Positions 17,468-27,081 of a DNA stretch of 64,000 nucleotides are shown in pieces. The stretch is from Micromonospora sp. BL4 (GTDB lineage: Bacteria > Actinomycetota > Actinomycetes > Mycobacteriales > Micromonosporaceae): NCBI RefSeq assembly GCF_003667505.1, contig NZ_RCVJ01000114.1:1-64000 (forward strand). The letters run 5' to 3'. The notes beneath the pieces were generated by a model, which saw only the letters and a program-made list of their open reading frames with translations, did not search any database and had not been told where the DNA came from. Numbering within the stretch: position 1 is the stretch's first letter; each line of letters opens with the position of its first letter. The translations under genes were made by a program, and so were the position numbers.

Positions 17468-17974
17468 TCAGGCCGTCGCCCGCTTCGGGAGCTTCCACCC
17501 GGGGCGGGGGAAGTGGCAGGTGTAACCGTTGGGGTAGGTCTGCAGGTAGTTCTGGTGCTCGGGCTCAGCTTCCCAGAAGTCGCCTGCCGGGGTGACCTCG
17601 GTAACGACCTTGCCGGGCCACAGGCCTGAGGCGTCGACGTCGGCGATGGTGTCCTCGGCGACCCGCTTCTGCTCGTCGTTGGTGTAGAAGATCGCCGAGC
17701 GGTAGCTGATGCCGATGTCGTTGCCCTGGCGGTTCTTCGTCGAGGGGTCGTGGACCTGGAAGAAGAACTCGAGCAGCGCGCGGAAGTCGGTCTTCTCGGT
17801 GTCGTATACGACCTCGATGGACTCCGCGTGGGTGCCGTGGTTGCGGTAGGTGGCGTTCGGGACGTCGCCGCCGCTGTAGCCGACGCGCGTGGACACGACG
17901 CCGGGCTGGTGGCGGAAGAGCTCCTCCATGCCCCAGAAGCAGCCGCCGGCGAGGATCGCCTTTTCGGTGGTCAC
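17468..17974 (-). CDS. msrA: peptide methionine (S)-S-oxide reductase
   Basis: A 168-residue MsrA. The catalytic GGCFWGME places Cys12 as nucleophile. Family blocks [22 protein letters not shown] and [24 protein letters not shown] follow. It reduces the S-diastereomer of methionine sulfoxide with thioredoxin. It lies nine bases after msrB and is clearly the second gene of an msrB-msrA operon. Normal length for the family. Confidence 0.97.
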
Positions 17975-17983
17975 ATCGTCTCC

Positions 17984-18463
17984 TTACTTGTCGTCGGTGT
18001 CAGTGTTGCTGCCACTCGTGAACAGGGTGCGGTATTCGCCGTACCCCGCGTTCGCGAGGTCGTCGAGGTGGATGAACCGCAACGACGCGGAGTTGATGCA
18101 GTAGCGCAGTCCACCCTTGTCGCGGGGACCGTCGTTGAAGACGTGGCCGAGGTGGCTGTCCCCGTGCAGCGAGCGGGCCTCAGTCCGGATCATCCCGTGG
18201 CTGGAGTCTTTGCTCTCGACGACGTTCGTCTTGGCGATCGGCTTCGTGAAGCTCGGCCAGCCGGAGTTGCTGTCGTACTTGTCGACCGATGCGAACAGCG
18301 GCTCGCCGGACACGACGTCGACGTAGATGCCGGGCTCGTGGTTGTCCCAGTACGCGTTGGCGAACGGCCGCTCGGTGCCGTTCTCCTGGGTCACGCGGTA
18401 CTGCTCCGGGTCAAGCTGCGAAACGGCGTCCGGGTTCTTGTGGTAGTGGGTCTGCTGGGGCAC
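17984..18463 (-). CDS. msrB: peptide methionine (R)-S-oxide reductase
   Basis: A 159-residue MsrB. Blocks [31 protein letters not shown] and RYCINSASL are present, with Cys122 as catalytic residue. The two CxxC zinc motifs of many MsrB proteins are absent, so this is the zinc-less form. A GTG at 18463 with GGGAG seven bases upstream is chosen; the longer frame to 18529 adds a tail unlike the family. It reduces the R-form of methionine sulfoxide, complementing MsrA downstream. Confidence 0.96.
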
Positions 18464-18857
18464 AGCTCTCCCTTCCCGGCCTTTCGGCGTGGAACTGGGG
18501 AACGAGGCGAAACGCACCTGTAGAGACACCCTGCGGGCCGGCTGTATTCCCGCGGCCCTCAGCTTCCTTGGACCATCAAGTCCGGGATGACTATTGAAAG
18601 TTCGCGGCTAGGTGGCGTCGCTGTGGCGGGTGGCCTCGGAGATGTCGCCGCCACAGTAGCACCGGCGTGATCCCAAGAGTGGACTTGACCGACCAGTTCT
18701 ACCGCGACTAGGTTCGGGGCGGCCGACGGGGTGCCTCCGCTGGCGACGAACTGTCCGACGTGCCTACCGGCGTCGAGTTCACGGACGTCGTGTCACTCTC
18801 GGGGCGCCGGGTGCGGCCAACACACACCGCGATTGGGTGGGGAAGGGGCCAACTGTC
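18464..18857. other. gene-free stretch upstream of the broken SDR gene
   Basis: About 390 bases without a protein-like frame. It must carry the leftward msrBA promoter. A rightward promoter candidate lies at 18685-18714. Confidence 0.4.
18685..18714 (+). promoter_or_regulatory. candidate promoter of the broken SDR gene
   Basis: TTGACC (18685-18690) and TAGGTT (18709-18714) are spaced by 18 bases. They lie about 145 bases upstream of the GTG at 18858. Pattern-based only. Confidence 0.3.
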
Positions 18858-19326: not shown

Positions 19327-20244
19327 ATGAAGGCGATCGTAGTGACGGACGAGGCCGCGGGAATGGCCGGGATGACGCTAATGGAGCGGCCCGAGCCGGA
19401 CGCGGCGCTGAACGACGTCGTTGTTCAGGTCCATGCGTCGGGATTCGTCCCGACTGAGTTGGCGTGGCCCTCGACCTGGACCGATCGCCTCGGTCGTGAC
19501 CGGACGCCGTCGATCCCCGGGCACGAGCTGGCCGGGGTGGTCACCGCTCTCGGCTATGGCACCACGGGTCTGTCGGTGGGGCAGCGGGTGTTCGGCCTCA
19601 CGGACTGGACCCGCGACGGCACCCTGGCGGAGTATGTGGCCGTCGAGGCGCGTAACCTCGCGCCGCTTCCCGGCGACGTCGACTTCACGGTGGGCGCGAG
19701 CCTGCCGATCTCGGGCCTGACCGCGTGGCAGGGACTGTTCGAGCACGGCCGCCTTCGGGCGGGTCAGAGCGTCCTCGTGCACGGCGCGGCCGGCGCAGTC
19801 GGTTCGATGGTGACGCAGCTCGCACGCGAGTTCGGCGCCTACGTCATCGGCACCGGGCGCGCTGCCGACCGTCAGACGGCGCTCGACTTCGGCGCGCAGG
19901 AGTTCGTTGACCTCGAGAATGATGTCCTCGAAGACGTCGGCGGAGTCGAGCTGGTGTTCGATGTCATCGGCGGAGACATCGGGAAGCGGTCCGCAGGCCT
20001 GATTCGAGCCGGAGGAACGCTGGTATCCGTCGTCGGCCCGCCGGAGGCGCGGCCCGCCGACGGCCTGGCGGTCGACTTCGTCGTCGAGCCCGACCGCGCT
20101 CACCTGGGTGAGGTCGTCCGACGGGTGCGGGACGGACGACTGCGGACGAACATCGGCAGGGCCGCGACCCTCGACGACGCCGTCGCCGCTTTCAATTCGA
20201 CCGAGCGGATCACCGGGAAGACGGTCATCCGCGTTCGTCCGTAA
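19327..20244 (+). CDS. NADP-dependent zinc-type oxidoreductase (quinone reductase-like MDR)
   Basis: A 305-residue medium-chain dehydrogenase/reductase without zinc. The GroES-like N-terminal half has PGHELAGVV, and the Rossmann half has the cofactor motif VLVHGAAGAVGSMVTQLA (about residues 149-166). It lacks the zinc-ligand cysteines, as in quinone reductases and alkenal reductases that use NADPH. ATG 19327 is preceded by GGGAGGCGCCGG. It stands alone. The substrate is not readable. Confidence 0.9.
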   Translation: MKAIVVTDEAAGMAGMTLMERPEPDAALNDVVVQVHASGFVPTELAWPSTWTDRLGRDRTPSIPGHELAGVVTALGYGTTGLSVGQRVFGLTDWTRDGTLAEYVAVEARNLAPLPGDVDFTVGASLPISGLTAWQGLFEHGRLRAGQSVLVHGAAGAVGSMVTQLAREFGAYVIGTGRAADRQTALDFGAQEFVDLENDVLEDVGGVELVFDVIGGDIGKRSAGLIRAGGTLVSVVGPPEARPADGLAVDFVVEPDRAHLGEVVRRVRDGRLRTNIGRAATLDDAVAAFNSTERITGKTVIRVRP

Positions 20245-20630: not shown

Positions 20631-20927
20631 TCAGGCAGTCGGCACCGGCAGGCTGAGGACGAGCGACCCACGCAGGTCGACCAGGACACGACCGGCCGTG
20701 CGCACCACGCGCATAACGACGTCCTCGCAGCCGGGACACCGGGCGACGAGGCCGGGCGCTCGGTCGAACACGCGCATCGCGGCCAGCGGACGGGTCGTCC
20801 GGCACCCGGCGCAGGTGAGCTCGGCAACGGTGAGGTCGGTCCCCATGATCTCGCCGAGCGGCCCGGCGAGGGCGTTGCCGTCCACCCAGGGTGCGTCGTC
20901 GGCTCCGACGTTGGTCGGCATGCTCAT
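20631..20927 (-). CDS. DUF6510 family zinc-ribbon-like small protein
   Basis: A 98-residue protein with two CxxC pairs: CAGC (about residues 39-42) and CPGC (about 64-67). These should bind one zinc ion, with a short beta tail. This matches the DUF6510 family as I recall it, often encoded beside oxidoreductases. It overlaps the FAD gene by four bases (ATGA), so the two are translationally coupled. The role is unknown; an accessory or electron-transfer partner is possible. Confidence 0.8.
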   Translation of the reverse strand: MSMPTNVGADDAPWVDGNALAGPLGEIMGTDLTVAELTCAGCRTTRPLAAMRVFDRAPGLVARCPGCEDVVMRVVRTAGRVLVDLRGSLVLSLPVPTA

Positions 20928-21664
20928 CCTCCGGTGGGTCCGAAACGTTCAGTGCGGATGTTCGTGGGATCGTGGCCGATGTCGACGAGGAGGTCGGCAA
21001 CGGTCTCGACGAAGCCGGTGGGTCCGCAGACGAACGCCACAGCGTCGGCATCGCGGGGCCAGGCGACGCGAGCGAGGGCGTCCGCGTCCAGTCGTCGGGG
21101 TGGAGCCGGCGAACCAGGAGGCGCGACCCTGGTATAGACGTGTGTGACGGCGATGCGCCCATCGCCTGCGGTTTGTGCAGCGGCAAGATCCGCCGTGAAC
21201 AGCGCATCGGAAGGGGATCGCGTCGAGTAGAGCAGCCTGGTGGGATTCGTCGCCGCGCGCACCATCGACATCAGCGGTGCCACGCCGGACCCGCCGCCGA
21301 TCAGCAGCGCCGGGCGCGGATCGGCGGGTCGGCGTACGAACCAGCCGCCGAGCGGCCCACGGATCTCGAGCTGGTCACCCGGTTCTGCAACGTCGACGAG
21401 GTACGGCGAGACCTCACCGTCGGGCACCGCCTGGACGGTCACCTCGAGCCGGTCGGGCCCCGGGGCGGATGCGATCGAGTAGCTGCGGTACGCCGTGTAG
21501 CCGTCGGGAGCCGTCAACCGGACGTCGACGTGCTGGCCTGGCACGTGACCTGTCCAGCCGTCGACGTCGAGGACCAGGGTCCGCGCCGTCGCAGTCTCCG
21601 CGCGGGTGGCGGCGACGGTCGCCGGCTGCCAGGTCAGTCTGACAGGTATCGCTGCTCGCGCCAT
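20924..21664 (-). CDS. FAD/NAD(P)-binding oxidoreductase, ferredoxin-reductase-like
   Basis: A 246-residue flavoprotein reductase. The FAD domain carries RSYSIAS (RxYS motif), the flavin/phosphate loop and GPLGGWFV. The NAD(P) domain begins ALLIGGGSGVAPLMSM and ends with VCGPTGFVETV. There is no iron-sulfur domain, so electrons go from NAD(P)H through FAD to a partner, most likely the molybdenum protein encoded just upstream. Its start at 21664 lies 31 bases inside the end of that gene. Confidence 0.9.
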   Translation of the reverse strand: MARAAIPVRLTWQPATVAATRAETATARTLVLDVDGWTGHVPGQHVDVRLTAPDGYTAYRSYSIASAPGPDRLEVTVQAVPDGEVSPYLVDVAEPGDQLEIRGPLGGWFVRRPADPRPALLIGGGSGVAPLMSMVRAATNPTRLLYSTRSPSDALFTADLAAAQTAGDGRIAVTHVYTRVAPPGSPAPPRRLDADALARVAWPRDADAVAFVCGPTGFVETVADLLVDIGHDPTNIRTERFGPTGG

Positions 21665-22230
21665 GGGTCCCCGTAGTTGTGATAGCCGGCCGTCTCCCAG
21701 AACCCAGGCTCGTCGTCGAGGCGCAGTTCCAGAGCGCGCAGCCACTTCGCGCTCTTCCAGAAGTACAGGTGAGGAACGAGGAGACGCGCTGGCCCGCCGT
21801 GCACCGGAACCAGCGGCTCACCGTCGAACTCGTACGCCACCCAGGCCTGGCCGTCGAGAAGGTCCTCGAGCGGCAGGTTCGTGGTGTAGCCGCCGTAGGA
21901 GTGGGCGACGACGTACTCGGCCGTCGTCTCGACGTCGGCCAGCAGCGTGTCCACCGAGACGCCTCGCCAGCGCGTGCCGAACTTCGACCAGTGCGTCACG
22001 CAATGGATGTCCACGGTCGGTTCTTCGGCAGGAAGGGCGGTGAACTCCGCCCATGACCACGTGCTCCGCTCGCCGGTCTCGGTGACGACGGCGAGCTCCC
22101 ACCGGTCGAGGCCGATGCGCGGTGTCGGTCCCGCCGACAGCACCGGAAAGTCGTCCGTGCGGTACTGGCCGGGCGGGAGGTCCGTGTCGTCGCGTCTGCG
22201 GCCCCCGAAACCGCGTGTGATCAATGCCAT
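21634..22230 (-). CDS. molybdopterin-dependent oxidoreductase, sulfite-oxidase fold
   Basis: A 198-residue protein with the SUOX molybdopterin fold. HCVTHWSKFGTRWRGVSV holds the conserved Cys that ligates molybdenum. GGYTTNLPLEDLL, VHGGPARLLVPHLYFWKSAKW and the C-terminal FWETAGYHNYGDPW are typical of short MsrP/YedY-like members. There is no Tat signal, so it should act in the cytoplasm. ATG 22230 has GGGAGGGACGC upstream. It is first in a three-gene operon with the FAD reductase and DUF6510. The substrate is unknown (sulfoxide, N-oxide or similar). Confidence 0.92.
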   Translation of the reverse strand: MALITRGFGGRRRDDTDLPPGQYRTDDFPVLSAGPTPRIGLDRWELAVVTETGERSTWSWAEFTALPAEEPTVDIHCVTHWSKFGTRWRGVSVDTLLADVETTAEYVVAHSYGGYTTNLPLEDLLDGQAWVAYEFDGEPLVPVHGGPARLLVPHLYFWKSAKWLRALELRLDDEPGFWETAGYHNYGDPWREQRYLSD

Positions 22231-22381
22231 GCGTCCCTCCCCATGTGGCCAGGCGGCCGCGATCCCGTTGCTGCCCGTGCTTCCGCTCGGCCGGTGATCC
22301 ACCCCGCCCGTGACGTCATCGTCTGCGAGTGCCCCGGTAATGAGATTTCACCCGTTGGGACCGTAGTCGCCCGCAGTCCGG

Positions 22382-22408
22382 AGTATATTGACTGGACCAT
22401 GACGTCCA
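22382..22408 (-). promoter_or_regulatory. promoter and TetR operator of the molybdenum oxidoreductase operon
   Basis: On the minus strand TATACT (22387-22382) is a strong -10 box. Just upstream lies the palindrome TGGAC, six bases, GTCCA (22393-22408), filling the -10/-35 spacer. The same palindrome occurs before the small gene at 22652 and before the TetR gene, so this is the likely binding site of that TetR protein. Confidence 0.55.
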
Positions 22409-22536
22409 GAATAGGCTGGCGTGGCGCCAGCCGGCAAATCCCTCCACTGGCCGCCAGTGGGTGGGGTCAACAGGGGGACTGGCGGTCGTGGCGGTGCGTA
22501 CCCCATCTGGCGGATAACTCCGCAGCGCGAGTATAA

Positions 22537-22552
22537 AGGACTATGGAGTCCA
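22537..22552 (+). promoter_or_regulatory. TetR-type operator upstream of the 22652 gene
   Basis: AGGACTATGGAGTCCA. On the minus strand it reads TGGAC, six bases, GTCC, the same half-sites and spacing as 22393-22408 and 23778-23793. A TATAAA just before it (22532-22537) may be part of the promoter. Confidence 0.5.
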
Positions 22553-22651
22553 TGCGGCGCGGCTAGGGACTGTTCCGAGTTGGTCGTCGACATGTTGCAG
22601 CCGGTGCGAGATGGCCGCGGGCCAGGTCTTGTCCGATGTCAGGAGAGTTTG

Positions 22652-22981
22652 ATGAACCCTGTTCCCTCCGGTGGGGACGTTGTCGATGGCCAGCCCGTCG
22701 ATGCGGCGGACATGATCGCCGCCCTGACCGCTGCACAGTTCGTGTTCCAAGACGGCGCCACACAATCGTTCACGGCAGAGGGTCGAACGACCTACGTCGA
22801 CAGGGGCACACCGTCGGCTGGCGAGTGGTCTGTTACGGGTGACGGGACCTTCGCTTCGTTCTGGCCGCCAACGTACCGGGCGACGTACACGGTTCGGTGG
22901 ATCGTCGAGGACGGCGTGCGAGTGGGCGTCAGCTTCACGGATGCCCGGAGCCGAGTCCGCTACGACGGCCGATACCGATGA
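22652..22981 (+). CDS. hypothetical protein, SnoaL/DUF-like small beta protein
   Basis: A 109-residue protein starting MNPVPSGGDVVDGQPVDAAD with CAGGAGAG upstream of the ATG. The body reads as alternating beta strands: VFQDGATQSFTAEGRTTYVD, GEWSVTGDGTFASFWPPTYRATYTVRWI. The GEWSVxGDGxFxSFWPPxYRATY stretch looks like a conserved family signature, but I cannot name it. An operator shared with the adjacent TetR gene suggests it belongs to that regulon. Confidence 0.75.
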   Translation: MNPVPSGGDVVDGQPVDAADMIAALTAAQFVFQDGATQSFTAEGRTTYVDRGTPSAGEWSVTGDGTFASFWPPTYRATYTVRWIVEDGVRVGVSFTDARSRVRYDGRYR

Positions 22982-23074
22982 CTGGACGAGATGCGAGCCA
23001 TACGTCGAACCACGATTGGCTCCGTGCTTCCTCTGCTCGCACCCGCCGTGACCAGTCTGATGAACAGGGTTCAA

Positions 23075-23731
23075 CTAACGGGTCGGCTCGCCGGACGGCT
23101 CCGAGAGGAACGATTTGATGTGGTCCAGCGCCATGTCCAGAGCAACTTCCATGGGTTCGACGTTGTGCGCGGCGTTCGCCAGCAGGTAGCCGCCTTGCAA
23201 GGCTGCCATCAACCCCGTGGCCAACTTCTCCGGGTCGGCGTCCTGGCGCAGTGCGCCGCTGTCCCGCATCCGGTGCAGACCATCACTGATCAGCTTTCCC
23301 CATGCCGCAAACGTCTCCGACAGCATCGATCGAGCCTGCTCATCTTGATCAGACAGCTCGACAGCCATCGACCCGAGGCCGCACCCGTACTTGCCGTTGT
23401 TCAGTGAGTTGGCCTGGACCAGCGCGTTACGCCACCGGACCAGCCCTGAGAACGATCTCAGTCGTTCGAGCCCTGCGCGCTCACGCTGAAGCACAAGCGC
23501 GCCTCGATATTTGACCAACTCGCGCACGAGCTCCTGCTTGTCCGCGAAGTGGTGGTAAAGCTGCGACTTGCTCGTCTGGCTTGCCTCGCGGACGTCGTCA
23601 AGGGTCGTCGCGTTCACCCCGCGCACGAACATCAGCCGGTTCGCCGCCTCGAGGATCCGTTCTCGGGTCGCGATGCCCCGTTGGCTGATCCTCCGCTGCT
23701 TCGTCGGCGCAGCCACCTGCTCGTCGCCCAT
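23075..23731 (-). CDS. TetR/AcrR family regulator, LmrA/YxaF-like
   Basis: A 218-residue TetR regulator. The helix-turn-helix is at about residues 20-65 (ATRERILEAANRLMFVRGVNATTLDDV, SKSQLYHHF), and the C-terminal domain has the GCGLGSMAVELSDQDEQAR pattern seen in LmrA/YxaF-type regulators. A palindrome (23778-23793) sits 47 bases upstream of its start, and two copies flank the neighbouring molybdenum operon. It probably represses itself and those genes. Inducer unknown. Confidence 0.9.
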   Translation of the reverse strand: MGDEQVAAPTKQRRISQRGIATRERILEAANRLMFVRGVNATTLDDVREASQTSKSQLYHHFADKQELVRELVKYRGALVLQRERAGLERLRSFSGLVRWRNALVQANSLNNGKYGCGLGSMAVELSDQDEQARSMLSETFAAWGKLISDGLHRMRDSGALRQDADPEKLATGLMAALQGGYLLANAAHNVEPMEVALDMALDHIKSFLSEPSGEPTR

Positions 23732-24186
23732 CGGTCAAGTGTATCCATCGGCGCGCGCTAAATAATCTACGAAGGATGGGACCTTGGAGTCCATTCAGCG
23801 CGATGTCGCATTGACGTGATGGTGAAGGACGAGCGGATGCCCTGCCAGCTTGGTGGGACGGGTGCTATGTCCGCGGGATCATCAATAGGGCGAATCTTTG
23901 CCCGGACCATACGGTCCTCATTGTGGCAAGTTGCTGCTGAGAGTTGCTCGGCGCTGCGTCACGGGCGGTGCGCCGGAGGACAGCCATGTCAACACTCGTT
24001 GACATACGTGGGTACGTCACGCGCATCACCGCGGCTGACCTGGCTGCGGCCAGGAAACAACAAGGGGGGAATCAACGGAGCAAACAAGTGAACGCGAGGA
24101 AGTCCTCGCGTCAGCGAGGTGTTCAGCGGCAGCGGGGAACTTGACCAGATTGCCGGTATTCGGGTTCGCCAGGCCTGGATACGTGG
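23732..24186. other. gene-free stretch upstream of the TetR gene
   Basis: About 455 bases. Apart from the operator at 23778-23793, no convincing gene is seen. A short rightward frame from about 23985 (STLVDIRGYVTRITAADLAAARKQQGG) is weakly protein-like. Confidence 0.4.
23778..23793 (-). promoter_or_regulatory. autoregulatory TetR operator
   Basis: Minus-strand TGGAC, six bases, GTCCC. It lies 47 bases upstream of the TetR start at 23731, just ahead of an AT-rich AGATTATTT that may be the -10 region. Half-sites and spacing are the same as at 22393 and 22537. Confidence 0.55.
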
Positions 24187-25392
24187 TCATTTCGCCGCGG
24201 CAGTTGGTTGCCAAGTGATCCGTTCGTAGCAGACCAGGGCGATCAGGATGATGGCGACTAGAGCGAGGGCGGCGAGGGCGGGAAGGTGTCGGGCGACCGG
24301 CAGCAGCGCGAGAATGATGCCGGCCGCGAGGATCGGGGCGGGTGGGGTGTGCCGGACGGTGAGTCGAAGGAACAGGGCCCGACCAACGAGGTAGAGGGCC
24401 GGGCCGCCGAGCAGAGCTGCGGTCGAAGTCCAGTCCAGCGAGGTCCCAGCGGGCCGCCGGGGCGGGTGGTGGGTCATGTGGGCGAGCACCACCTCTATGC
24501 CGACGGCCAGGTAGATGATCCCGGCGATGAGCACGAAGTGAGTCAAGCTGTAGGCGATGCTGCCTGTCCGAGTCCGGTCGGCAACGGGGATCCGCGCCAG
24601 GGCTTGACCGGCGGGTGCGGCGGCGTTTTCGAAGTACAGCCACCACAGAGTCAGCGCCGTGGTCAGGGCGAGCAGCGCAGCGATCAGGACCGGCCAACGA
24701 ATGACCGCCGATCCGGCGCCGACGCCCACCGCGATCAGCGACTCGCCCAGAGCAATGATCACTATCAGGCCGTGCCGCTCGGCGAAATGGCCGGGGCTTG
24801 GCAACGGAGCGCGTCCGGCAGACACCGCGATGAACAGGCCGCCGACGCAGTCGATGAGGAACGCCGCGGTCCACAACAGCGTCTGCGTGGCGCCGCCGAA
24901 CACCGCGCCGAGAAGCAGAGCAGGAAAGCCCAGCGAGACCGGGATGAGCCGCAAGCGCAGCGAAGCGCGTAGCCGCGCGTTACCGGCCGAAATGTGCCAG
25001 ACGAGGGCCAGATACACCGCCCGGATGACGATGTAGACGAGGGCCAGGGTCATGGGCGCGGCCAGTGACTGGCTGTCGTGCCGCCACGCCTGGGGGAGGA
25101 CCAGGGCGGCCACGAACATCGCGGCCATGACAGCGGTGTTTCCGGCGCGGACCAGGCCCACGTCGGCGCGGACCTGGTTGGCCAACCAGGCGTAGTTGGT
25201 GAACGGCCACCACAGCAGCAGCAGGAGCACAAGGCTGTGCGCCAGCCTGAGTGGCGTCGGCGCCTGTGCCGTGAACGTTGCCACCTGGATGAATGCGAAC
25301 ACGAACACCAGGTCGAAGAACACCTCGAACGGCGTGGTCCGATGGGCTTCCTCGGTCGGCACCGGCGGCCTGGCCTGGAAGATGCGTTTCAT
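24187..25392 (-). CDS. low temperature requirement protein A family membrane protein
   Basis: A 401-residue polytopic protein with about ten to eleven hydrophobic helices. The N-terminal TTPFEVFFDLVFVFAFIQVATF, then the central ERHGLIVIIALGESLIAVG motif, are diagnostic of the LtrA family. The function is unknown; the first member was linked to growth at low temperature in Listeria. ATG 25392 begins the conserved KRIFQARPPVPTEEAHRTT; upstream sequence in the frame is not family-like. Monocistronic. Confidence 0.92.
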   Translation of the reverse strand: MKRIFQARPPVPTEEAHRTTPFEVFFDLVFVFAFIQVATFTAQAPTPLRLAHSLVLLLLLWWPFTNYAWLANQVRADVGLVRAGNTAVMAAMFVAALVLPQAWRHDSQSLAAPMTLALVYIVIRAVYLALVWHISAGNARLRASLRLRLIPVSLGFPALLLGAVFGGATQTLLWTAAFLIDCVGGLFIAVSAGRAPLPSPGHFAERHGLIVIIALGESLIAVGVGAGSAVIRWPVLIAALLALTTALTLWWLYFENAAAPAGQALARIPVADRTRTGSIAYSLTHFVLIAGIIYLAVGIEVVLAHMTHHPPRRPAGTSLDWTSTAALLGGPALYLVGRALFLRLTVRHTPPAPILAAGIILALLPVARHLPALAALALVAIILIALVCYERITWQPTAAAK

Positions 25393-25601: not shown

Positions 25602-26069
25602 ATGGGCACACGACATGCCTTGGCCGATGACCTCGCTTCCGTGGGGTTCTCGGTCCTGCGCTCCGCACTGGCGACGAACATCTTGTGGATCGGTGCGCTC
25701 AAATTCAAGCAGTACGAGGTCGAGAACGATGAGCCCCTGGTCACCTCGAGTCCGCTGTTCTCGCGGTTCCGGACGAAGCTGGGCGCACGAAAGCTCAACC
25801 GACTCATCGGTGTCACGGAGATCACCGTGGGCTCTCTGATCGCCGCGAAGCCCTTTGCGCCCAGAGCGTCGGCGATCGGCAGCTTCGGGGCGGCGGGGAT
25901 GTTCCTCACCACGCTCAGTTTCCTGGCCACGGCACCCGGAACTCGGCAGGAAGGGCAGGGGAAGTTCAGCCTTTCTCAGCTGGGGCAATTCCTGTTGAAG
26001 GACACGGTGCTCCTCGGTGCCGCTCTCTTGACAGCTGCCGAGTCGCTGCGCGTCGCCGGCCACCGGTAA
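25602..26069 (+). CDS. DUF417 family membrane protein
   Basis: A 155-residue protein with about four hydrophobic segments. LATNILWIGALKFKQYE(VEN)DE, then LVTSSPLFSRF and RLIGVTEITVGSLIAA, match the DUF417/YkgB family of small inner-membrane proteins, some of which respond to reactive chlorine in E. coli (RclC). AGGAGCGAGCG precedes the ATG. A role in oxidative stress would fit the neighbourhood but is inference. Confidence 0.88.
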   Translation: MGTRHALADDLASVGFSVLRSALATNILWIGALKFKQYEVENDEPLVTSSPLFSRFRTKLGARKLNRLIGVTEITVGSLIAAKPFAPRASAIGSFGAAGMFLTTLSFLATAPGTRQEGQGKFSLSQLGQFLLKDTVLLGAALLTAAESLRVAGHR

Positions 26070-26481
26070 CGCCTGAGTTTCCCTCGCTTTGATGGAGCGT
26101 GGGCATCTGCCTGCGCTCGCTGACCCAGAACTAGCTGCACCGTACGAGTAGCTGACGAAAAAGCTCCGCGGTGACCGGCTGCTTCGAGCTGGCCCGGCCT
26201 TCTTCAGGTGGGACGAATCGCGCCACAGGCGTTGCTTAGGCCTGCTCTGGCTGGGAACAGGGACGAACAACCCAGGTGAGCATCGTCGGACACGACGAAA
26301 TCCGGCCCTGCAGCGGCCACCAAGCGGGCTCAGGCCCGTGGGGCGCGTCCGTGTCCGAGCCCGGTTCGCTGTCGCGACGCCCAGTCGGGCCCGGTGGCGA
26401 CGGCGCCGCTGGCGTTGCTACAGTCAGTTTGTTGCCGAATCAAATTTCTCAGCGGCAACTACCTTTGAAAGGACCCCTCCG
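26070..26481. other. intergenic stretch upstream of wrbA
   Basis: About 410 bases with no convincing gene. The only structure seen is the inverted repeat at 26431-26459. Confidence 0.45.
26431..26459 (+). promoter_or_regulatory. inverted repeat, candidate operator of wrbA
   Basis: GTTGCCG (26431-26437) and CGGCAAC (26453-26459) are separated by 15 AT-rich bases. It ends 22 bases before the wrbA start. The spacing would suit a dimeric redox-sensing regulator such as HxlR or MarR, but none is encoded nearby. Confidence 0.4.
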
Positions 26482-27081
26482 ATGACCAAGCTCTCCGTCA
26501 TCTACTACTCCTCGACCGGCACGGTCCACGCCATGGCCAGGCGGCTCGCCGAGGCTGGCGAGAAGGCCGGCGCCGAGGTGCGGCTGCGCCAGGTTCCGGA
26601 GCTTGCACCCGAGGAGGCCATCGCCTCCAACGCCGCCTGGAGCCAGCACTTCGACGCCACGAAGAGCGAGGCAAAGGCGACCGCCGACGACGTCGTCTGG
26701 GCCGACGCCGTGCTGTTCGGCACCCCCACCCGCTACGGCAACGTCTCCAGCCAGCTGAAGCAGTTCATCGACACCCTAGGCCCGCAGTGGGGCCAGGGGC
26801 TGCTGGCCGACAAGGTGTACGCCGGCTTCACCGCATCCATGACCGCCCACGGCGGCCAGGAGTCGACGCTCCTGGCGCTCTACAACACGATCCACCACTT
26901 CGGCGGTCTGGTCGTCGCCCCCGGCTACACCGACCCGTTGAAGTTCGGCGACGGCAACCCGTACGGCGTCTCGCACGTCACCGGCGGCGGCAACGACGCT
27001 CCGCTGGGCGACGCCCAGCTCAACGCCCTCGACCACATGGCCCAGCGGGTCGTCAAGATCGCCAGCAAGCTCAGCGCCTGA
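26482..27081 (+). CDS. wrbA: NAD(P)H:quinone oxidoreductase, WrbA type
   Basis: A 199-residue flavodoxin-fold protein. It begins KLSVIYYSSTGTVHAMA (FMN phosphate loop SSTGT), with PTRYGNVSSQLKQFID, SMTAHGGQESTLLALYNTIHHFGG and the C-terminal QLNALDHMAQRVVKIASKL. These are the standard WrbA blocks; it reduces quinones by two electrons and protects from redox cycling. ATG 26482 with GAAAGGA upstream. Monocistronic, with a strong terminator after it. Confidence 0.95.
   Translation: MTKLSVIYYSSTGTVHAMARRLAEAGEKAGAEVRLRQVPELAPEEAIASNAAWSQHFDATKSEAKATADDVVWADAVLFGTPTRYGNVSSQLKQFIDTLGPQWGQGLLADKVYAGFTASMTAHGGQESTLLALYNTIHHFGGLVVAPGYTDPLKFGDGNPYGVSHVTGGGNDAPLGDAQLNALDHMAQRVVKIASKLSA

Follow-up and report, generated by a model that had tools for sequence, protein, structure and literature searches.

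Comparative footprinting points to a conserved TetR regulon of redox genes, probably autoregulated, in Micromonospora and its relatives

A 64,000-nucleotide stretch of the genome of Micromonospora sp. BL4 (hereafter, the window) carries three palindromes with a six-base spacer between positions 22393 and 23793, which raises the question of which regulator acts on them and how many genes it would control. The first-pass annotation had proposed a local regulon in which one TetR repressor of the LmrA/YxaF type governs three units with a shared inducer: its own gene, an operon for a molybdenum (Mo) protein, a FAD reductase and a DUF6510 protein, and a small gene at 22652. We extended this three-site observation by comparative footprinting; the features concerned are listed in the table. 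In the reading that we favour, with a probability of about 0.7, a NemR/AltR-like TetR repressor of redox-defence genes, which also controls its own gene, uses the palindromes as operators, and its Cys117 would act as a switch for oxidants or electrophiles. The sites, their conservation, the controls, the co-occurrence with a target and the invariant cysteine were obtained by computation, and from these we infer binding, repression, the inducer class and the cysteine switch. Neither the motif nor the regulon is described in any title or abstract opening among the matches listed from the open-licence PMC literature.

Table. Genes, predicted operators and candidate promoters of the putative regulon in the window
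Feature	Position	Strand	Basis
msrA	17468–17974	−	PMSR, TIGR00401
msrB, listed start GTG	17984–18529	−	SelR, TIGR00357
SigR-like promoter of msrB, GGGAAT-N18-GTC	18525–18551	−	sole match in the window, 1.91 expected by chance
Predicted operator before msrB	18569–18584		15.8 bits; sites in 8/8 full cluster copies of msrB
Weak predicted partner operator, 111 bp from 18569–18584	18680–18695		9.9 bits (same matrix); each of the 8 full cluster copies of msrB has a partner there
PIG3-like quinone/zinc oxidoreductase	19327–20244	+	ADH_N, ADH_zinc_N; PIG3 the best NCBIfam match, below cut-off
DUF6510 protein, two CxxC pairs	20631–20927	−	PF20120; CxxC pairs from the translation
FAD/NAD-binding reductase, start assumed	20924–21664	−	FAD_binding_6, NAD_binding_1
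Molybdenum oxidoreductase of the sulfite-oxidase fold	21634–22230	−	Oxidored_molyb; PDB sulfite oxidases and 1xdq
Predicted operator proximal to the Mo operon, perfect palindrome	22393–22408		20.4 bits; site in 9/9 cluster copies
Candidate conserved promoter of the Mo operon	22408–22438	−	TTTGCC (22433–22438), 19 bases, TATTCT (22408–22413); ends on the operator
Predicted second operator, Mo promoter region	22537–22552		24.6 bits; 144 bp from 22393–22408; may also serve the 22652 gene
Small gene, 109 aa, no family match	22652–22981	+	no Pfam match; relatives L008 (87%), L144 (84%)
TetR-family regulator, 218 aa	23075–23731	−	Pfam TetR_N, TetR_C_13, TetR_C_13_2 above cut-off; single cysteine Cys117; helix-turn-helix ..TSKSQLYHHF
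Predicted operator, tetR proximal, about −57	23778–23793		23.4 bits; 27/28 named ortholog loci
Predicted operator, tetR distal, overlooked in the first-pass annotation	23903–23918		17.1 bits; distal site in 23/28 named loci

Direct reading of the window confirms the three palindromes at the positions reported for them and gives GGAC-N6-GTCC as their common core. The longer half-sites of TGGAC-N6-GTCC, which had been described as shared, hold in part: the site at 22393–22408, TGGACCATGACGTCCA, is the sole perfect TGGAC-N6-GTCCA among the three, and those at 22537–22552, AGGACTATGGAGTCCA, and 23778–23793, GGGACCTTGGAGTCCA, each have one outer mismatch and show TGGAC-N6-GTCC on the minus strand only. 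The window holds 7 matches to the pattern, where 1.16 would be expected (sd 1.17; maximum 5 in 100 shuffles); three of them lie elsewhere (14487, 18569, 39074), and two are one palindrome read on both strands. In the whole genome it is not enriched (89 + 99 matches against 163 + 159 for the reversed control, or 188 versus 322); hence, the pattern alone proves little, and the case rests on position and conservation.

A weight matrix was trained on 48 sites upstream of tetR in 28 named Micromonosporaceae orthologs, the window being left out. At 14 bits or more, it gives five matches in the window (0.3 expected from 20 simulated sequences), namely, at 22538 (24.6 bits), 23779 (23.4 bits), 22394 (20.4 bits), 23904 (17.1 bits), and 18570 (15.8 bits), the last two of which are absent from the earlier three-site observation. 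At 13 bits or more, 147 sites were found, five in the window (its first 32 kb scanned) and the others in the 28 named loci. Many of these lie upstream of tetR, of an OsmC-like gene, of the Mo operon, or of msrB-msrA, which faces a PIG3-like quinone reductase; others precede GNAT and SnoaL-like genes. At 16 bits or more, the intergenic regions (44,055 bases) hold 85 sites, and the called ORFs (301,652 bases), which are crude picks and in part spurious, hold 30. A sequence-profile search of the genome with the site model, a method too insensitive for a 24-base site, returned two weak matches only (best E 1.54).

Upstream of tetR itself, the 28 named orthologs (85–97% identity; Micromonospora, Asanoa, Planosporangium, and Rugosimonospora) and the window share two sites, a distal one and a proximal one about 57 bp from the start, which stand out of less conserved flanks. 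It should be noted that the counts of 27 of 28 proximal and 23 of 28 distal sites, made at 13 bits, are partly circular because the matrix was trained on those sites; the counts on all other genes are free of this circularity. Neither site reaches the threshold in locus L006, and the distal one is missing at 13 bits in L012, L016, L023, and L024. The distribution of the regulator is patchy: an ortholog of at least 89% identity was found in 20 of the 61 own-genus genomes searched, the source genome included. Of 37 genus genomes, 13 carry the TetR ortholog, and it is in those same 13 that a quinone reductase of about 85% identity or more is found (Fisher p = 3 × 10−10, relatedness ignored).

Homologs of three targets, the Mo protein, msrB, and the quinone reductase, were sought in 61 genomes (37 of the genus and 24 of the order). 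For the Mo protein, 38 of the 57 places listed were read. A site lies within 450 bp of each of the nine cluster copies (identity of 91% or more), and none of the 29 other homologs read, which comprise 21 homologs and 8 within-genome paralogs and include the second copy in the source genome, has one of at least 9 bits. The first-pass annotation had named absence of the motif from orthologous loci with the same gene order as grounds for giving up its proposal; at the nine cluster loci, the motif is kept. The partner of the proximal site is found in 8 of the 9 copies, weakly in L143 (10.9 bits) and L142 (12.7 bits), and not in L148.

Two of the three units proposed at the outset thus retain their sites, upstream of tetR and upstream of the Mo operon, and the assignment of 22537–22552 to the small gene fares less well. 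Among the loci compared, L008 and L144 are the only ones besides the window in which the small gene was found, and the partner site is kept in six of the seven cluster copies where this gene was not found (two of these being the weak ones), which suggests that 22537–22552 may serve the Mo promoter. The AlphaFold model of the small protein (pLDDT 69.6) gave no Foldseek match in the PDB at E 0.001 or better, so that it was placed in no family. The Mo protein reaches 40.7 of the 207 bits required by the MsrP equivalog of NCBIfam, with only the sulfite-oxidase-type domain in common, and is far below the cut-off of the SoxC model.

The "good leftward promoter" that had been placed around 22393–22408 did not stand: a scan of 22200–24200 for the sigma-70 consensus found no match, and the other eight cluster copies aligned do not share the TATACT hexamer named for it at this position, so this promoter was rejected. 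Conserved instead is TTTGCC-N19-TANNNT upstream of the Mo gene, present in 7 of 9 cluster copies (8 of 9 in the form TTGCC-N19-TANNNT). Because this element ends on the operator, the repressor may cover the transcription start.

The regulon would also be larger than three sites, as indicated by the sites at msrB-msrA, the quinone reductase, the second site of tetR, and an unlinked locus. For msrB, all 18 places were read. The eight full cluster copies all carry the pair of sites, and none of nine non-cluster copies has sites; the tenth copy counted as other (L188) is a truncated one in the tetR cluster L004 (4759–5213), which keeps both operators outside the scanned stretch. The SigR-like element GGGAAT-N18-GTC is likewise present in all eight full cluster copies, with GTC against the GTT of the consensus quoted in the excerpt of PMC3489674, where msrB is among the genes tabulated as raised in an rshA mutant. 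The element overlaps the listed GTG, so the true start of msrB is probably further downstream.

In the case of the quinone reductase (30 of 43 places read), a site lies within 450 bp in 10 of 14 cluster copies and in none of 16 others, four of which (L211–L214, 76–80%) are second copies inside tetR clusters. Three of the four cluster copies without a site this close have a pair 646–1278 bp upstream (in the window, at 646 and 757 bp); the fourth, L191, shows none over the 1.5 kb examined.

Promoters of the set usually carry two predicted operators. In all, there are 81 distinct pairs at 20–200 bp, a few of them chance neighbours, and 69 of the pairs are spaced by 100–146 bp; in the window, the spacings are 125 bp (tetR), 144 bp (Mo), and 111 bp (msrB). 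Among the orthologous tetR loci (L001–L028), the spacings fall at 67–69, 77–78, 89, 100, and 118–125 bp, as if in steps near 11 bp, with weak statistics: a period near 11 bp has p = 0.04 for the tetR pairs alone, p = 0.22 for all classes of pairs, and p = 0.79 for the non-tetR pairs. A value of p = 0.0002 came from a subset picked after the fact and is not relied on.

A WrbA-type NAD(P)H:quinone oxidoreductase (26338–27081, + strand), another redox gene close to the predicted regulon, has no listed site, and a DUF417 protein (25602–26069, + strand) has no site of at least 6 bits listed near it; according to the excerpt of PMC9600549, DUF417 is the family of the HOCl-resistance proteins RclC and RcrB. 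An NhaA antiporter fused to a DsbA-like thioredoxin domain is encoded in L002 (7984–9876), and its family is found in 12 of the clustered loci.

As to the regulator itself, Pfam places it in the TetR family by its N-terminal helix-turn-helix (PF00440, 48.7 bits; cut-off 24). The LmrA/YxaF type assigned to it earlier is borne out to the extent that the C-terminal domain PF21993 (TetR_C_13_2, LmrA/YxaF-like) scores 47.4 bits against a cut-off of 27; PF16925 (TetR_C_13) is also above its cut-off and scores higher still (50.2 bits). Among solved structures, NemR (4yze, E 1.7e-9) is about as close as YxaF (1sgm, E 5.2e-9), two unnamed TetRs being closer. From the gene set, an oxidant or electrophile is a likelier signal than a flavonoid. 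An AlphaFold model of the regulator, for which 11 close relatives were aligned, reached a mean pLDDT of 51.9 and was not used.

Cys117 is the sole cysteine of the regulator, is present in all 29 orthologs, and aligns with Cys106 of NemR. Lys175, the partner of Cys106 in NemR, aligns with Asn186 here (NemR numbering inferred, with an offset of 2 from the cysteine); hence, the sulfenamide switch of NemR is not expected as such, and we do not file the protein as NemR. A cysteine at the Cys117 position is not specific, since each of the 31 other TetRs aligned has one, whether or not it carries the motif.

Beyond the ortholog group, 30 TetR homologs of 34–51% identity were read, and in 9 of them a site scoring 12 bits or more precedes the start of the gene, the starts being extrapolated. 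Three plasmid TetRs were also read, out of 405 records with a match: two from Streptomyces (56.5% identity) have a site of 22–24 bits 56–57 bp before the start, and one from Mycobacteroides (53% identity; L230, NC_021278.1 13083–25631) has no matrix site. The last is divergent from genes for a flavodoxin and a cation:proton antiporter, which recalls kefF/kefC. The motif is therefore not confined to the TetR of the window but extends to part of a TetR subfamily.

In the source genome, a TetR paralog of about 30% identity (G000:C113:47921–48499) has a 19.7-bit site at its own promoter (C113:48560), which faces a divergent aldo/keto reductase gene (L110 4033–4148); seven other listed TetRs with an alignment have no site before their start, and three more gave no alignment. 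A tighter pattern finds 37 places in this genome and misses two of the five window sites, so the list is incomplete. Among these places, the highest matrix score outside the window (24.8 bits) belongs to C112:122032, which is flanked by convergent 3′ ends and is probably a decoy. The site at C68:6685 has a partner 143 bp away and stands before SnoaL/DUF4440, MFS, and GNAT genes. This promoter (L222 2490–2880) is similar to the one before OsmC in relatives, and by eye the short stretch behind it looks like the start of OsmC; the promoter may have outlived its gene. One query with OsmC gave no match in the genome, an empty answer that proves little.

The same operators and regulon could belong to a sensor of small molecules, comparable to LmrA/YxaF (flavonoids), AcuR (acrylate), or ScbR (butyrolactones), with Cys117 in a structural role. 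We regard this as possible though unlikely. The score of PF21993, the presence of the cysteine across the family whatever the targets, and the species names of several hosts, which suggest association with plants, would fit such a sensor, as would the fact that ScbR and AcuR are the top NCBIfam models; both remain far below their curated cut-offs, however (60.2 of 150 and 47.7 of 247 bits). The targets, moreover, are Msr, the Mo oxidoreductase, the quinone reductase, and OsmC, and no flavonoid dioxygenase or lactone gene is among the gene families listed for the TetR loci. These targets are redox-repair or quinone enzymes, and it is the targets, the cysteine, and the published cases of NemR and AltR that lead us to favour an oxidant or electrophile as the signal.

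The claim that one regulator controls all units is open to a different objection, since the C113 paralog has the same motif before its own start, so that a single regulator is not proved and cross-talk is possible. That the two proteins share the sites, and that induction is not by one signal, seems to us rather improbable, given that their recognition helices differ (TSKGQLFHYF in the paralog, TSKSQLYHHF in the window TetR) and that the window TetR co-occurs with a target. What ties the protein to the sites is their position, and some other regulator might bind them with TetR as a mere target; the motif before 9 of the 30 homologs and before the two TetRs on plasmids of another family makes this very unlikely. 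As for 22537–22552, a terminator scan lists it as a five-pair stem followed by TTTATACT (two found, 1.0 expected), but its score of 24.6 bits and the partner present in seven of the other eight cluster copies (two weak) leave hardly any room for a chance palindrome or a weak terminator.

Under the favoured reading, the TetR would repress its own gene through the palindromes and would also repress the Mo/FAD/DUF6510 operon, msrB-msrA, and the nearby quinone reductase, usually from two operators per promoter, mostly 60–146 bp apart. At the Mo operon, the proximal operator would lie directly on the transcription start, so that a bound dimer would block RNA polymerase. Modification of Cys117 by a thiol-reactive oxidant or electrophile would release the repressor and switch all units on together, and msrB may have a SigR-type promoter besides.

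A bolder proposal, which we consider doubtful, is a mobile redox-defence regulon of Micromonosporaceae in which the single-cysteine TetR senses a thiol-reactive oxidant, each promoter is repressed from two helically phased operators, perhaps by way of a DNA loop, and Mo/FAD/DUF6510 form a cytoplasmic reductase of S-oxides (methionine sulfoxide) beside MsrA and MsrB. If the favoured reading is true, it would provide a thiol-switch regulon of the NemR/AltR kind with a defined operator in actinobacteria. It would also tie two proteins of the operon, the DUF6510 protein and the uncharacterised molybdenum enzyme, to quinone defence and to the repair of methionine sulfoxide, and so open their function to direct tests.

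Among known systems, LmrA/YxaF (QdoR) of Bacillus subtilis has two operators on one target promoter and one on its own, according to the excerpt of PMC8481877, and shares the TetR_C_13_2 domain and the match to 1sgm; it differs in responding to flavonoids and in having a quercetin dioxygenase as target, a gene not seen among the gene families listed for the TetR loci. CssR was rejected as a model, since in the excerpted text of PMC8176726 its operator differs and it is without redox-active cysteines. The excerpt on the allicin-resistance islands of Pseudomonas, PfAR-1 (PMC7119367), lists osmC, sdr, tetR, dsbA, ahpD, and an antiporter. OsmC, SDR, TetR, an NhaA-DsbA fusion, and an AhpD-like (CMD) protein occur near this TetR in various loci; the resemblance is one of general gene content, and the excerpt does not mention Msr or the Mo operon.

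NemR of Escherichia coli, a TetR repressor that senses bleach and electrophiles, represses detoxification genes (excerpt of PMC7464077) and itself (excerpt of PMC13178969). It is related to the window TetR by family, by the close solved sequence 4yze, and by the aligned Cys106, and it differs in having six cysteines against one, Lys175 against Asn186, and other targets; its operator sequence was not found in the literature searched. AltR of Pantoea ananatis, a thiosulfinate-responsive TetR, has one key cysteine and further boxes in its gene cluster, as described in the excerpt of PMC13178969. Its half-site is CAATCTAC rather than TGGAC, and its host and gene set are other ones. By the same excerpt, AltR represses itself through an inverted repeat with a six-base spacer in its own promoter, a spacing also found in the palindromes upstream of the window tetR. 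In sum, the palindromes probably mark a conserved, autoregulated TetR regulon of a known general kind, wider than first reported.
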